The notes below the pieces were generated by a model that searched no databases, was not told the origin of the DNA, and was given only the letters and a program-made list of their open reading frames with translations. Below are positions 3,444 through 11,508 of a stretch of 64,000 bases of DNA, piece after piece. Each line of letters starts with the position of its first letter. The first letter of the stretch is position 1. The DNA is from Desulforamulus putei DSM 12395 (GTDB lineage: Bacteria > Bacillota > Desulfotomaculia > Desulfotomaculales > Desulfotomaculaceae): assembly GCF_900129195.1 (NCBI RefSeq), contig NZ_FQUY01000001.1, positions 372,001 to 436,000 of the forward strand, given 5' to 3'. Both the position numbers and the translations under genes were made by a program.

Positions 3444-3484
3444 TGTAAAGGATTGGCACATTCTTAGCTGATGAAAGATACCAT

Positions 3485-3524
3485 TAAGAACTACTAAGAA
3501 CTACTAAGAACTACTAAGAACTAC
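3485..3524 (+). repeat. Four tandem copies of a 10-bp unit (TAAGAACTAC)
   Basis: Four exact head-to-tail copies of TAAGAACTAC, followed by a partial unit GAACTACC, just after the Uma2 gene. A 10-bp period suggests a slippage-prone minisatellite rather than CRISPR, because there are no spacers. Confidence 0.9.
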
Positions 3525-3823
3525 GAACTACCGCTAACCTCACAAAGATCATAGCAGACGGTCAAGGATGCCCGGTCTTAGAACTGTAAAGAGGAACAAC
3601 CCCCGATGCCCGGCTGGTTCGAAGTTAACATAAAGTTTTTGCGTTGTCTGGCCATTGCCGCCGCCCCCCCTCGGTAGTTCTCTACATAGTTTCCGCTAAA
3701 GCCAGCGGGTTTTCCTCTCTGTTGATAGATACTACCGGGGTGTCCGCTTATATTGTAACAGGTTATACTTAATATAACAATTATTCATATATCATGGGGC
3801 AAAGGCTTCTACTGCGGCTGGTA

Positions 3824-5764: not shown

Positions 5765-6358
5765 AACACGGCAAACTCTTACTTCTTTATTACACTGGTA
5801 CCCGGCTGGCTGGGCATGAAATCCATTGAAGTACACGTTTCAATGGCTGAGGTGGCCAAGAGTGTGCTGATTTACCTAGGTATACCCTTTGTTGGTGGTA
5901 TGTTGACCAGGGCCTTGCTGATTCCCCGTAAGGGTAAAGAATGGTATGAAAAGGAATTTGTGCCCCGCATCAGCCCTTTAGCGCTGATTGCCCTGCTATT
6001 TACCATCGTCATCATGTTCTCCTTGAAGGGCAAATACATTGTTGAACTACCGATGGATGTGGTGCGAATCGCCATCCCGCTGTTGATTTACTTTACCGTC
6101 ATGTTCTTCTTGTCCTTCTTCATGAGCAAGCTAAGCTGCATCAATTATAGCCAAAGCACCACCCTGGCCTTTACCGCTGCCAGCAACAACTTTGAGCTGG
6201 CCATTGCAGTGGCTGTGGCCATATTTGGTATCAAATCTGGAGCCGCTTTCGCAGCAGTTATCGGCCCCCTCATTGAAGTACCTGTGATGATTGCCCTAGT
6301 GAATGTAGCCTTGGGCATTAAGAAAAAATACTTTACCACAAGTGGTGCGGTGAAATAA
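5765..6358 (+). pseudogene. C-terminal half of an ACR3-type arsenite efflux gene
   Basis: The frame starts after a TGA at 5762 and reads [20 protein letters not shown], then [18 protein letters not shown]. It ends with the ACR3 signature [20 protein letters not shown] and [18 protein letters not shown]. About 195 of the usual ~350 residues remain, so the first half of the transporter, including its conserved Cys-containing helix, is missing. An internal ATG at 5816 gives 180 residues but no Shine-Dalgarno sequence precedes it. It is probably non-functional. Confidence 0.8.
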
Positions 6359-6380
6359 TAACTCCCTGAAAAGAAAAACA

Positions 6381-6425
6381 GTAAACCCGGAAAGGAACAC
6401 TCCCCTGTTCTCTTCCGGGTTTTCA
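6381..6425 (+). terminator. Intrinsic terminator after the ACR3 fragment
   Basis: AAACCCGGAA pairs with TTCCGGGTTT, with an inner GGAACA/TGTTC helix, followed by TTTCATTTC. Its survival fits decay of a once complete transcription unit. Confidence 0.7.
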
Positions 6426-6439
6426 TTTCGTTAGCCCTG

Positions 6440-6500
6440 GTAATCACAGATTGCACTGCACTTACATCAGGTTCCGGCAGGGTTTTTTACCAATCCATAG
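6440..6500 (-). pseudogene. 3'-end remnant of a second CopZ-like gene, same in-frame TGA
   Basis: Read on the minus strand, this gives LVKNPAGT, then TGA (6467-6469), then Cys, and after a 2-base deletion AVQSVI. That is the same C-terminus as the metallochaperone gene ending at 8836 (LIKNPAGT, TGA, Cys, AVQSVI). About 60 bases are alignable, at roughly 75% identity by eye. It lies directly downstream of the ACR3-like gene, so a complete chaperone gene may once have followed the transporter. Confidence 0.6.
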
Positions 6501-6512
6501 AGTAAATTGAGG

Positions 6513-7493
6513 TTATTGACGATTTTTTACCCCAGGCAGGTTCCCTTCTGCCGGTAACACCCTATCCCAGTATGCCTTTAATTTTCCTGTCAGTCGAAAA
6601 AAGCCAGCCATAAAACATACCTGAATCAAAGGTTTAACAGCAATAATCATCACTGTTAGCGGGGAAAAGAACAACACCGCCAAGGCCAGTGCTATGGAGA
6701 TATTTTTACCACTGACACCATAAGTCAAAGCCACCATATCGGGGTAGTTTAATTTGGCCAGTCGGGCATAGAGCACTGAACTGCTAAAAAGAAGCAGATA
6801 AAAGATAACCAGCGGCACGCTGATGGTCAATATATACCGGGGGTTTTGTATGAGGTTAACGGCTTCCGCACACATGGATATGAAAAAGACCATGTACATC
6901 CCCAGGGCTGAGATCCCTGGGAAAACCGGTTTCAGTTCAGCAAACCGCTGGTACCCTATACGCTTGACTAGCCAAATCCGGGTTAGGTTGCCCAGAATGA
7001 GCGGCCCCACAATAGTTATCAGGATGGTCTTAAGCATTTGCAAAGCATCCACCGGCACATATTTTCCAGCCAGTACCAGCATCCAGGCGGGGATTAAGAA
7101 AATCCCTGCCAGTAAACTCATCACGGTTATCACCAGAGTCATGGGAGCATTACCTTTGGCCATACCGGTCCAGGCCACAATCATACCTGCGCAGGGAACC
7201 ACCCCGGTGAGGATGAGACCCACCGCAAAATCAGGATAACTTCCTAGAAAAGTTTTAGCCAGGAAAGCTGCTAACAAAGGAGATACCAAATAGTTAAAGA
7301 GCATCACCACTGTCATAAAACCCAACCGCTTTGCCGCCCCGGTTACTTCTCCAAGCTTAATCCCTACCATCATCGGGTAAAGCATAACAAACAATGAAAA
7401 GGGATACAGTACTTGCAGTTGATGGCCCAAATTTGGAAAGACCGATCCCACTATAAGTCCTAACACCACAGCCAGCATCAATAGTTTAATCAT
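6513..7493 (-). CDS. ACR3-like arsenic efflux / bile acid:sodium symporter family transporter
   Basis: A 326-residue, about ten-helix membrane protein of the BASS/ACR3 superfamily. The phrase GVVPCAGMIVAWTGMAKGN near residue 98 matches the ACR3 segment that carries the catalytically important Cys next to a trans-membrane break. A second conserved stretch, ALTYGVSGKNISIALALAV, corresponds to the second inverted half. It probably exports arsenite or antimonite driven by the proton gradient. It is diverged from the ACR3 fragment at 5765-6358, so the two are paralogues and not one broken gene. No ArsR regulator or ArsC reductase is adjacent. Confidence 0.75.
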   Translation of the reverse strand: MIKLLMLAVVLGLIVGSVFPNLGHQLQVLYPFSLFVMLYPMMVGIKLGEVTGAAKRLGFMTVVMLFNYLVSPLLAAFLAKTFLGSYPDFAVGLILTGVVPCAGMIVAWTGMAKGNAPMTLVITVMSLLAGIFLIPAWMLVLAGKYVPVDALQMLKTILITIVGPLILGNLTRIWLVKRIGYQRFAELKPVFPGISALGMYMVFFISMCAEAVNLIQNPRYILTISVPLVIFYLLLFSSSVLYARLAKLNYPDMVALTYGVSGKNISIALALAVLFFSPLTVMIIAVKPLIQVCFMAGFFRLTGKLKAYWDRVLPAEGNLPGVKNRQ

Positions 7494-7576
7494 GTGTGTG
7501 CTTATTTATAAATTTAAAGATATTCATTAACTCAACTCCCTAAAACGACATTTTCTTGTATATGGCGGATTTTTTC

Positions 7577-7606
7577 ATAAAAAAATAGTAGGCGCGAACC
7601 TACTAT
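7577..7606 (-). terminator. Intrinsic terminator after the ccdA remnant
   Basis: On the minus strand ATAGTAGG pairs with CCTACTAT around a six-base loop and is followed by a run of T. Confidence 0.75.
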
Positions 7607-7646
7607 CAGGTATTATCTAATTAAATGAAGATTGAATCTTTAGCAA

Positions 7647-7939
7647 CTAACCAATAACGCTGTAAAGTAAGTAAAAACCCAGGGCTATCAGGCCACCCCA
7701 CTAATTTTCTGTATCACCCGGCTAAAGCCATCAAACTTGGAAGCATTTTTCAGTACAGAGGTACAGGTGCCGGCAGCCAGCAGCGGGATGCTGCGGCCCA
7801 TCGCATAGGTAAACAGTAAAGAAAAGCCGTACCACATGCTGCCTTTGGCAGCAGCGTAGGCCAGTACTGTGGCTGTAATGGGGGTGGTACAGGGGGACGC
7901 GATGATGGCAAAGGGGATACCCAGTAAAAAAACCTTACG
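7647..7939 (-). pseudogene. Fragment of cytochrome c biogenesis gene ccdA
   Basis: The recognisable part reads KVFLLGIPFAIIASPCTTP, then AYAAAKGSMWYGFSLLF and YAMGRSIPLLAAGT. These are the Cys-Pro-containing helix and following helix of CcdA, which carries electrons from thioredoxin across the membrane. The first half of the gene is missing. Near 7690 a frameshift separates it from its natural end (GGLIALGFYLLYSVIG, stop at 7647). An apparent ATG at 7996 lies in unrelated sequence. Confidence 0.75.
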
Positions 7940-8011
7940 ACAGTTCAATAAAGTACTTTTAACAAACAACAAAAACAAAAACCAGGATGTTTTCACCCTG
8001 GCTTATATATT

Positions 8012-8731
8012 TTAGGCTTTACCGGTTCTGATCATCTGCGCAAATTCAGAGGGTAAACCAACTTCTTCAATCTCCCTGGCTGTTTGTTCAAAGTCATAGG
8101 GAACCTGGATGAATTCAACAGTCAAATTCCTTTCCGCAACATCAAGGATGGCATAAGTCACATTGGGATTGCCATGCTTGGGCTTGCCGGCACTGCCCAC
8201 ATTAATGATATGGCCTTTTGCCAGGGTTTTATGGAAGGGTAAATGGGTATGCCCGCAGATTAAGACATCGCAGTTATTTTCAGCCAGAAGTTCATTTAAG
8301 TATTCATCCGGTATATTTTCAAACAGATATTCGTTGAGCTGTCTGGGACTGCCGTGAACAATCAGGAACCGGAACCCTTCCTCGGTAAACGCTACCCGTT
8401 GTGGCAATTCCCTGAGCCATGCCTTATTTTCTTCGGAAGTATGTTCCTTGGTCCAAAGTACTGATCTTTCACCCAGTTTTAAGGCCTTTTCATCTTTGTA
8501 GTCACAGCCGCAAATGAGTCTCATATTGCCAATGGCATCATCATAATTGCCCATGACAGTGGGGATAGCTTTCCGGCGGAGCAATGCAATGACCTCATTG
8601 GGTCGTGGACCGTAGCCTACCAGGTCCCCGGCACAATAGATTCGGCTAATTTCTCTTTTTTCAATATCTTGCAAAGCTGCTTCTAAACCTAAAAGATTGC
8701 TGTGAACATCCGCAAAGACTGCTATTTTCAT
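8012..8731 (-). CDS. Metallophosphoesterase, YfcE/calcineurin-like
   Basis: A cytoplasmic metal-dependent phosphodiesterase of about 239 residues. The five calcineurin-like motifs are present: DVH at 8-10, GDLVGYGP at 35-42, GNYDD at 61-65, HGSPR at 126-130 and GHTHLPF at 160-166. The family includes cyclic-nucleotide and generic phosphodiesterases, so the substrate cannot be read from sequence. The second ATG (8731) is chosen because it gives the family's MKIAVFAD start and lies 12 bases after AGGAGG; the ATG at 8740 is only three bases from it. Confidence 0.85.
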   Translation of the reverse strand: MKIAVFADVHSNLLGLEAALQDIEKREISRIYCAGDLVGYGPRPNEVIALLRRKAIPTVMGNYDDAIGNMRLICGCDYKDEKALKLGERSVLWTKEHTSEENKAWLRELPQRVAFTEEGFRFLIVHGSPRQLNEYLFENIPDEYLNELLAENNCDVLICGHTHLPFHKTLAKGHIINVGSAGKPKHGNPNVTYAILDVAERNLTVEFIQVPYDFEQTAREIEEVGLPSEFAQMIRTGKA

Positions 8732-8835
8732 AATCAGCATCTACCTCCTAGCTCATTTTACAACATAAAGCAAAACTTTTCGTAAACCCAATGTAAAAAA
8801 AAATTAAAAATTTAACTCTCCTTGACTCCAAATCA

Positions 8836-9303
8836 TTAACAACTTATCTTATTTTTACCCCTTAAAGCTTCGGCAATCACCGATTGCACTGCTGGACGAC
8901 ATCAAGTACCAGCCGGGTTTTTTATCAGACACTCTTTACCACTATTAGCCCCAGTATGTTCCTGAATGTCTCTGAGGTTATGGCAGCAGTTTTTTATCCT
9001 CACATGGTCAATAATATCTTTAGTGGAGACGTTCTTACAATAACAGACCGGGACAGTTGGGTCGGTTTCCTTAAACCAAACCTTCACCTTTACATCGTCT
9101 TTATAAAATATTTCCCGCCCAAAATATACTACCGGGCAGTTTTGATTAAGGCACATGCTGTATCCTTCCAGAAGATGAGGTAAGCGGTCCTCCTTGATAA
9201 GACTTTGTAGAGTTTCATGTCTCATAGGCTTACTTCCGCTTCCGCAGACAGGGCAGAGAACAGCGCCCGCCTCCAGAGGGGTTCCCCCACAAACAACAGT
9301 CAT
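8836..9303 (-). CDS. CopZ-type Zn/[2Fe-2S] metallochaperone, predicted selenoprotein (TGA at 8902-8904 read as Sec)
   Basis: The protein matches the N-terminal domain of Archaeoglobus CopZ, which binds Zn and a [2Fe-2S] cluster. Visible segments are LCPVCGSGSKPM near residue 16, NCPVVYFGREIF near 54, VCYCKNVSTKDI near 85 and GKECLIKNPAGT at 122-133. Relatives continue NPxGxCCLGxV. Here a TGA stands where the first Cys of the CC pair belongs (residue 134), and the same frame continues as CRPAVQSVIAEALRG to a TAA at 8836, giving 155 residues. A second copy at 6440-6500 keeps the same TGA-Cys. AGTAGGAGG precedes the ATG. A conventional reading would end at 8902. Partner metal (Cu, As or other) is unknown; nearby arsenic transport genes suggest metal stress. 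Confidence 0.7.
8873..8887 (-). promoter_or_regulatory. Candidate bacterial SECIS hairpin
   Basis: On the minus strand GCAATC-GGT-GATTGC forms a perfect 6-bp stem with GGU in the apical loop. An AGC/GCT helix can form below it. The loop begins 20 nucleotides after the TGA, inside the 16-37 window known for bacterial SECIS elements, and carries the GU expected for SelB contact, as in E. coli fdhF. Confidence 0.65.
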
Positions 9304-9681
9304 GATTTTGCCTCCTACTACTCGTTAATTATACGTTTATACGTTTTCTGTAAAATCAATTAAATATTTTTCACCAGCATAGTTGGGATTATGGTCTTGA
9401 TTATTAAGCCTTTTACCTTAATAATTTTGCATCACTGTATTAAAATACCTTTAGTGGTTGAACAAACCATCTTTTTGGAGTAAAGTAAAGTAAATAACTT
9501 ATGTTAATTGGCAGTGTGCCATTCCTTCTTCATATTCTTTAATTTTTCTTCAAAAGAATTTTAAATCCTGTTTTGTACCTATTTAGTTAAGATTAAAGTA
9601 TCCGAAAATATTCATAAGTATTACTTTAACTACCTTCGTCCTAAGTAGGTTGCAACTGAGACATTTTAGGGAGGTTTGCCA
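9304..9681. other. Divergent intergenic region upstream of the metallochaperone and FapA-like genes
   Basis: AT-rich spacer between divergent genes. The only clear structure is an inverted repeat at 9400-9425 (ATTATTAAG / CTTAATAAT with an eight-base spacer), which could be an operator for the metallochaperone gene. I see no confident promoter. Confidence 0.4.
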
Positions 9682-11508
9682 ATGAAAGAAAAAAATGAAC
9701 GAAAAACTGCCAGCTTAAACCCTGGGACAGATACCTCGTCGCCCTCCCCCAATAATAACAACGAAGGTGTAGCTTGGGTTACCGGTGGTAAGATTTATGT
9801 ACAGGATCCTGAAGAAGGCGGTCGGAAAGCCACCATTATAACTTGTCCGGAAGTTCAAATACTGGTGAACGGTAATCCTGTCTCCGGTATTTCGGAGATT
9901 TCCCAAAAAGATCGGATCGAAGCCATACCCTTTAGTCATAACGACCCGGGTTTTGTGAAAGTTCACATTTCCCCGGATAAAATGTCGGCCTTTCTGGAAA
10001 TAAAAAACGAATACCGCAATACATACGAATTAATTGATTGTGCCCCTTCCCCCAACCTTGTTTTAAAGGCCAGGCACAAAAAAGAAGTCATTTTTAATGA
10101 GACCCGGGACTCATTGGTAAATCTTTTAAACAAACACAAAGTATCCTATGGCATCGATTTAAGCGCCATTGACAGTATCGTAAAAGATTCAAAGGATGGT
10201 ATGATTCTGGTCGCCCGGGGACTTCCCCCCGGTCAATCAACCGATGATATGGTTGAACTTCTGTTTGAACATAACGCCGGCACTCCCCAGGAAGATATCA
10301 AGGGTACAATCGATTTTAAAGAACTGGGTACTATACCATCCGTATCCGTGGGCGATACTTTAGCCAGAAAGATGCCTGGTCAAGAAGGCTCTCCTGGCAT
10401 TACTGTTACCAATCAGCTTTACAAAGCCAAAGAACCCAAAAGAATTAGTTTGCTTGCCGGACCCGGCGTTGAAATTGTTGAGGACGGATTAAGGGTTATT
10501 GCCACCAGCGAGGGACAACCCAAGGTGCAAAAGTCAAGTAACAACTGGTTTTTTTCCATAGAACCCGTGCTAACAATACCTGGTGACGTAAATGTCAAAA
10601 CAGGCAACATTCGTTTCAAAGGCGATGTTATCATCATGGGTTCCGTGGACAATGATATGAGTGTCAGCGCTACCGGCAATATTACGGTGCAAAACATTAT
10701 TACCAAATGTAAGATAACGGCCGGCGGAGACGTAACCATTAAAGGCAATATTGTGAATGCCGAAGTGGTTAGCGGTGGTTTTATTGTACTATGCAATACA
10801 TTAAAACCCTTACTCCATGATTTGTTAAGAAACCTTGAGGACCTGTTCATTTCTGCCAATTTGATGATTGAAAAGCTTCCTCCGAATACCAAAGTAATCT
10901 TTGGCAATGTTCTGGTTCTTCTCATTGAGAAGAAATTCATTAATTTAAACAGTTTACTGGATAAGATAAGCAAAAAGATCAAGGTACTGGATTTAAAGCT
11001 CCTTGGCAATTACGAGCATATCCTGCAAAAAACAATTAACCGGCTAAGTGGCATAAATATTCTTCAATATCAGACTGCTGATGAATTTCAAAAAACCCTG
11101 CAAGATCTCAGCAATTTCTTTTATTATGTGGACAGCCTGGTGGACAAGCGAAGTGTGGTGAGTATTAAAGTGGCCTTGAACTCCGTAATTAAGAGTTCCG
11201 GAGATGTTACGGTAAGCCAGGGTTGTTTCAATACCCATATTGTTGCCGACGGAAATGTTAAAGTTGGCGGGATTGTCCGCGGGGGCATCATTCAAGCCGC
11301 GGATGATGTGTATATTAAAGAAATCGGCTCTCAAATGGGAACAAAATCTCTTGTCATGGTGGCCAAAGACAAGAAGATAAAAATCGACCATGCCTTCGAA
11401 GGAGTCTCCGTACAGGTAGGAAAAGTGAGCAGGACTTTGGAGAAAGAGATGGTCAAGATTGTAGTTAGCCTGGATGATGAAGGCCACCTGCAAATAAGAA
11501 ATTATTAA
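9682..11508 (+). CDS. FapA family (DUF342) beta-helical protein
   Basis: A soluble protein of about 608 residues with the flagellar-assembly/polymerisation-associated DUF342 domain, whose function is unclear. The centre and C-terminus show repeated beta-helix-like strands with regular Gly/Val spacing: NVKTGNIRFKGDVIIMGSVD, SATGNITVQNIITKCKI, then after a helical insert of about 130 residues VIKSSGDVTVSQGCF and ADGNVKVGGIVRGGIIQ. The N-terminus is low-complexity (SSPSPNNNNEG). AGGGAGG lies seven bases before the ATG at 9682; an in-frame TTG at 9676 is too close to it. It stands alone between its own promoter region and a terminator. Confidence 0.8.
   Translation: MKEKNERKTASLNPGTDTSSPSPNNNNEGVAWVTGGKIYVQDPEEGGRKATIITCPEVQILVNGNPVSGISEISQKDRIEAIPFSHNDPGFVKVHISPDKMSAFLEIKNEYRNTYELIDCAPSPNLVLKARHKKEVIFNETRDSLVNLLNKHKVSYGIDLSAIDSIVKDSKDGMILVARGLPPGQSTDDMVELLFEHNAGTPQEDIKGTIDFKELGTIPSVSVGDTLARKMPGQEGSPGITVTNQLYKAKEPKRISLLAGPGVEIVEDGLRVIATSEGQPKVQKSSNNWFFSIEPVLTIPGDVNVKTGNIRFKGDVIIMGSVDNDMSVSATGNITVQNIITKCKITAGGDVTIKGNIVNAEVVSGGFIVLCNTLKPLLHDLLRNLEDLFISANLMIEKLPPNTKVIFGNVLVLLIEKKFINLNSLLDKISKKIKVLDLKLLGNYEHILQKTINRLSGINILQYQTADEFQKTLQDLSNFFYYVDSLVDKRSVVSIKVALNSVIKSSGDVTVSQGCFNTHIVADGNVKVGGIVRGGIIQAADDVYIKEIGSQMGTKSLVMVAKDKKIKIDHAFEGVSVQVGKVSRTLEKEMVKIVVSLDDEGHLQIRNY

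Follow-up and report, generated by a model that had tools for sequence, protein, structure and literature searches.

Described selenoprotein forms of the CopZ N-terminal domain

Two reviews, of 2022 and 2026, list a selenoprotein named "(2Fe-2S)-binding protein (copper chaperone CopZ family) form 1" (PMC9312934, PMC13188914). It is assigned to cd10141 with WP_245779778.1 as the example, and the 2026 table gives its motif as GxUC (PMC9312934, PMC13188914). Form 2 of the same lists is the Csac_0668 family, entered as CU in the 2026 table (PMC9312934, PMC13188914). CopZ is absent from the main text of the 2008 paper cited by both reviews, and no experiment on any member was found in the literature. 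The gene at 8836-9303 encodes a protein of the form 1 family with the same Sec motif (NPAGT-U-C), that is, a CopZ-like [2Fe-2S] domain with Sec in GxUC, the match being to the description in the table. The first-pass annotation of this DNA had taken a Sec-Cys pair in a metallochaperone for a probable new selenoprotein family member; since form 1 already stands in both reviews (PMC9312934, PMC13188914), a new family was rejected, and the gene is a well-supported addition to an already listed selenoprotein class, located beside a decaying arsenic-resistance locus.

The other described relatives differ from it in defined ways. The Csac_0668 family (NCBIfam model NF045877) shares the CopZ N-terminal domain, and some of its members contain Sec, but there Sec belongs to a CU pair near the N-terminus and NPxGxCC keeps its cysteines. 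The protein has no Sec near its N-terminus and scores 102.5 with NF045877 (190 needed) and 71.8 with NF047645, the model for CC forms (100 needed), so that membership of either family by cut-off was rejected. The N-terminal domain of Archaeoglobus fulgidus CopZ (2hu9) has the fold, the zinc and [2Fe-2S] cysteines and NPxGxC in common with it; however, it carries Cys in place of Sec and lacks a CC pair at the positions corresponding to 106-107, and full CopZ adds a copper-binding domain. Bacterioferritin-associated ferredoxin (Bfd) shares the fold of the [2Fe-2S] half, but has neither the zinc half nor Sec, and its cysteines are spaced differently.

Form 2 (CU) itself was encountered in L044 and L045 (genomes G130 and G053), which have an in-frame TGA near the N-terminus (GGC-U and KKC-U, respectively) and an intact NPxGxCC; L045 exceeds the NF045877 cut-off, which L044 narrowly misses. 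L152, L153 and L186 are likely form 2 as well.

An in-frame UGA at a conserved cysteine of the domain

The window is the whole stretch of 64,000 nucleotides analysed, and its features are collected in Table 1. On the minus strand, a frame of 155 codons extends from the ATG at 9303 to the TAA at 8838-8836, with a single in-frame TGA at codon 134. The translation around it reads ...CLIKNPAGT-U-CRPAVQSVIAEALRGKNKISC, the TGA (8904-8902) being followed by 21 further codons in frame before the TAA, as had been read initially. Ordinary ORF calling yields a product of 133 aa only.

Table 1. Features of the Sec gene and of the neighbouring arsenic island (positions within the window).
Feature	Position	Strand	Basis
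Truncated acr3, profile positions 166-327 of 327	5816..6358	+	TIGR00832, 223.5 bits of 282.8
What is left of an older Sec CopZ copy: final codons, TGA (6469-6467), damaged hairpin, the gene's terminator	6375..6487	-	Lies in a stretch with 84% identity to the intact G006 locus (L053)
ACR3-like permease (bile-acid/arsenite transporter superfamily)	6513..7493	-	TIGR00832, 108.6 bits, below cut-off
DsbD/CcdA-type membrane gene fragment	7688..7996	-	Collinear with L053
Metallophosphoesterase, also in relatives' arsenic loci	8012..8740	-	TIGR00040, 58.9 bits
Selenoprotein gene, stand-alone CopZ N-terminal domain	8836..9303	-	Translation; zf_CopZ over cut-off; same-TGA homologues
bSECIS hairpin GCAATC-GGT-GATTGC	8873..8887	-	Compensatory changes at 3/6 pairs; frozen synonymous sites
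TGA read as Sec134, first position of CC in NPxGxCC	8902..8904	-	phmmer alignment with C118 of 2hu9; TGA in 46/46 full-length Sec relatives
Cys106-Cys107 pair	8983..8988	-	In every Sec form covering the site, 0/34 Cys forms
CYC (87-89), candidate [2Fe-2S] ligands	9037..9045	-	Invariant in alignment; matches 2hu9
CPVC (17-20), predicted zinc-site cysteines	9244..9255	-	zf_CopZ match to residues 16-72; invariant in alignment
AGGAGG ribosome-binding site, 5' of the ATG	9311..9316	-	Sequence reading

Both halves of the CopZ N-terminal domain fold, the zinc half and the BFD-like [2Fe-2S] half, were found in the sequence and in the predicted structure. In Pfam, zf_CopZ matched with 59 bits, over its cut-off, and the BFD-like [2Fe-2S] domain (Fer2_BFD) below threshold. 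Among Protein Data Bank sequences, 2hu9 alone matched, and the predicted structure (pLDDT 87.9) superimposes on it at TM scores of 0.72/0.85; structures of Bfd came second in the fold comparison. In the alignment with 2hu9, Sec134 stands opposite the first Cys of CC (C118), which bears out the original placement of the TGA on a conserved CopZ cysteine; the CC pair at 106-107 lies 27 residues before it. An HMA copper domain was not found (no PF00403 match in the protein), and the accurate name is therefore stand-alone CopZ N-terminal domain. Thus, the earlier designation as a CopZ-type metallochaperone was right for the zinc/[2Fe-2S] domain but overstated as a name.

The hairpin and the conservation of UGA among relatives

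The perfect six-pair hairpin pointed out in the first-pass annotation, with its GGU loop starting 20 nt 3' of the TGA, agrees with the published bSECIS rules (six pairs, GGU loop, 20 nt, energy). A shorter fold of the hairpin stretch has -7.4 kcal/mol; over a 49-nt stretch, the folding energy (-9.5 kcal/mol) was not lower than that of shuffled sequences (z 0.38). Furthermore, 25 of the 2086 TGAs in the window (about 1%) are followed by a hairpin of such shape. Geometry by itself is weak evidence and the energy gives no signal; the comparison with relatives decides. A search of 5800-9700 with Rfam gave one weak match, which was taken as chance.

Were the TGA an ordinary stop, the protein would end at 133 residues, as ORF calling has it, and the downstream frame (CRPAVQSVIAEALR) would be a chance extension, behind which a hairpin could fall as it does behind other TGAs of the window. 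The relatives make this very improbable. Matches are present in 43 of 150 related genomes; among the closest matches, with identities of about 40% or more, almost every one has a single in-frame TGA, which occupies the same position. When the profile was run over 399 genomes of the phylum, every full-length match above about 165 bits had the TGA, and full-length matches without it scored 160 bits at most. Homologues across Bacillota preserve the TGA (46/46 full-length Sec genes), the downstream frame and the hairpin; of 50 Sec genes, 48 stay open for 15-24 codons behind the TGA before a stop is reached, the downstream protein is conserved, and relatives ending at the TGA with no such frame behind it, which would have spoken for termination, did not appear. 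Cys homologues have NPxGxCC where Sec forms read NPxGxUC.

Selection on the nucleotides points the same way. Synonymous codon use was compared at conserved residues of the 46 full-length Sec genes. For the five codons that the hairpin covers (V-Q-S-V-I), the normalised synonymous entropy was 0-0.28, TCG being used in all 46; for 34 other conserved codons it was at least 0.76. The stem is paired in 99.5% of cells (33 sequences), and three of the six pairs show replacements on both sides: two went from A-U to G-C and one from G-C to U-A. The covariation score exceeded that of all 500 shuffles, which ignore relatedness; the changed stems come from several parts of the tree (L064, L104/L106, L108, L111), and a further one is in the fragment L115, which is off the tree. 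A lower stem (columns 13-14 with 37-38) was weak, with 73% paired, and was not retained. Taken together, frozen synonymous sites and compensatory changes are strong evidence that the hairpin acts as a working SECIS, and they argue against an ordinary stop.

The genome also encodes the machinery that the first reading had proposed to look for: tRNA-Sec (70.9 bits), selB, selA directly upstream of selB, and selD (G000:C31:16587-17510). Because the selD match itself has one in-frame TGA, SelD is probably a selenoprotein, too. Among the genomes examined, selA was over cut-off in all 40 with the TGA form, which again speaks against termination, and in 29 of 38 with Cys forms. That the gene at 8836-9303 encodes a selenoprotein at all is close to certain, and comparison could give no firmer grounds for reading its UGA as Sec. 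The gene is a clean example of UGA recoding, in which ORF calling cuts the protein to 133 residues and even the full protein stays under both NCBIfam cut-offs.

A single origin of Sec together with a second cysteine pair

In the tree, 46 of 46 Sec forms lie on one side of one branch (SH-aLRT support 98), so that a single state change is needed, and no Cys revertant was found within the Sec clade among the sampled sequences. Every one of the 49 Sec forms whose sequence extends over residues 106-107 has a CC (or CU) pair there, and 34 Cys forms all lack it. Sec and the CC pair both trace to the one branch and are therefore one event, not repeated co-evolution. With a single origin of Sec, no sampled revertant and the CC pair, the clade is a good one for studying the role of selenium beside an iron-sulfur cluster.

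Some members carry additional TGA codons or are shorter. In L099 (5995-6453, G046; L061 is the same gene), the CC pair at 106-107 becomes C-U through another in-frame TGA, one base off a TGC of the close relative L093; this codon may encode a further Sec, or it may have arisen by mutation or sequencing error. L180 (G410) has a second TGA at an N-terminal Cys of its Sec gene (LUG for VCG) and may carry two Sec residues, unless this is an artefact. L112, L113 and L114, from Negativicutes/Sporomusaceae MAGs, are frames of about 66 residues that contain the [2Fe-2S] half alone, with the CC pair and UC, so the Sec half may exist on its own.

A decaying arsenic island next to the Sec gene

The ACR3 island in the window is decaying: its acr3 (5816-6358) is without the first half, and the DNA between the CopZ remnant and the next permease is missing relative to the genome G006 of the same genus. 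The remnant corresponds to what had been annotated as a second copy at 6440-6500. TGA-TGT is indeed kept there, but 2 nt have been deleted behind it and the hairpin has decayed to GCAATC-TGT-GATTAC; with the frameshift, this is a pseudogene remnant, and a second functional copy was discarded. The intact gene groups with the copy of G003 (70% identity), and the remnant resembles that of G006. In two other genomes of the genus (G001 and G005), similar remnants of the CopZ C-terminus, consisting of TGA region and terminator, occur in unrelated places (L086, 7511-7617, and L087, 7169-7283).

In G006, the Sec gene is convergent with acr3, about 100 bp apart, and arsP, ArsR-type genes, a DGC-domain gene and a DsbD_TM gene are also near. 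Overall, 11 of the 51 Sec loci (about a fifth, window included) have an ACR3 or ArsP gene no more than 5 kb away, compared with 5 of 34 Cys loci. At about 0.8 full acr3 genes per genome, the chance level for acr3 is estimated at roughly 0.3%. The ACR3/ArsP link is probably real but partial, and related loci are not independent.

Elsewhere in the window, at 3480-3537, there are four direct copies of a 10-nt repeat unit (AGAACTACTA type).

Possible function

The comparison of relatives shows that the TGA at codon 134 is decoded and the frame continued to the TAA, with the bSECIS hairpin just 3' directing decoding; by analogy with the known bacterial pathway, SelA and SelD would make Sec-tRNA(Sec), which SelB on the hairpin would deliver. 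The product is a stand-alone CopZ-type N-terminal domain with a predicted zinc site and a predicted BFD-like [2Fe-2S] site, Sec134-Cys135 taking the place of the CC of NPxGxCC beside the putative cluster and the second pair, Cys106-Cys107, having come along. Such a protein could be a cytosolic redox module in which the selenol works together with Cys135 or with the CC pair and electrons are stored on the [2Fe-2S] cluster; its target may be a toxic soft metal or metalloid that is reduced or handled, and at an acr3/arsP locus the best candidate would be arsenic. The arsenic neighbours suggest a testable substrate. We infer this role because Sec adjoins the predicted [2Fe-2S] site, the CC pair is specific to the Sec clade and ACR3 or ArsP is near the 11 loci counted above. 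Against it, 40 of 51 Sec loci have neither ACR3 nor ArsP nearby, and the linkage of CC pair and Sec, which arose once on the tree, counts as one event only. A [2Fe-2S]/selenol redox module acting on soft metals or metalloids has, in our estimate, about an even chance of being the correct description.

The same residues could instead be mainly soft-metal ligands; with Sec134 and the cysteine pairs, the selenoprotein would then chaperone or buffer Cu(I), As(III) or Hg(II) without redox turnover. Kinship with CopZ, the vicinal CC and UC pairs, the metal and metalloid exporters that adjoin part of the loci and the plasmid-borne Cys relatives by mer genes would all be in keeping with this. However, the HMA copper domain is absent, a linkage to copper was rejected, as only one of the 51 Sec loci has a heavy-metal ATPase nearby, and the bacterial selenoproteins known so far are mostly redox proteins (PMC9312934); a pure ligand role is possible, but on the doubtful side. 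A general Bfd-like electron carrier for some partner, to which the arsenic neighbours would be incidental, is unlikely: the second rank of Bfd structures in the fold comparison, the many Sec loci devoid of arsenic genes and the short form with the [2Fe-2S] half suit it, but several distant branches have more ACR3/ArsP neighbours than the rough chance level would give.

Carried further, the redox reading of the protein would make the GxUC clade an always-Sec, [2Fe-2S]-linked, selenium-dependent system, in which UC and the CC pair reduce arsenic or another metalloid or ferry it to the ACR3/ArsP exporters. This is quite unlikely as it stands; if it were true, selenium would be a working part of arsenic resistance, not of copper handling.

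Cys forms of the domain on two plasmid records (H1 and H17) adjoin merB or merA, which suggests that some of the Cys family is linked to mercury.
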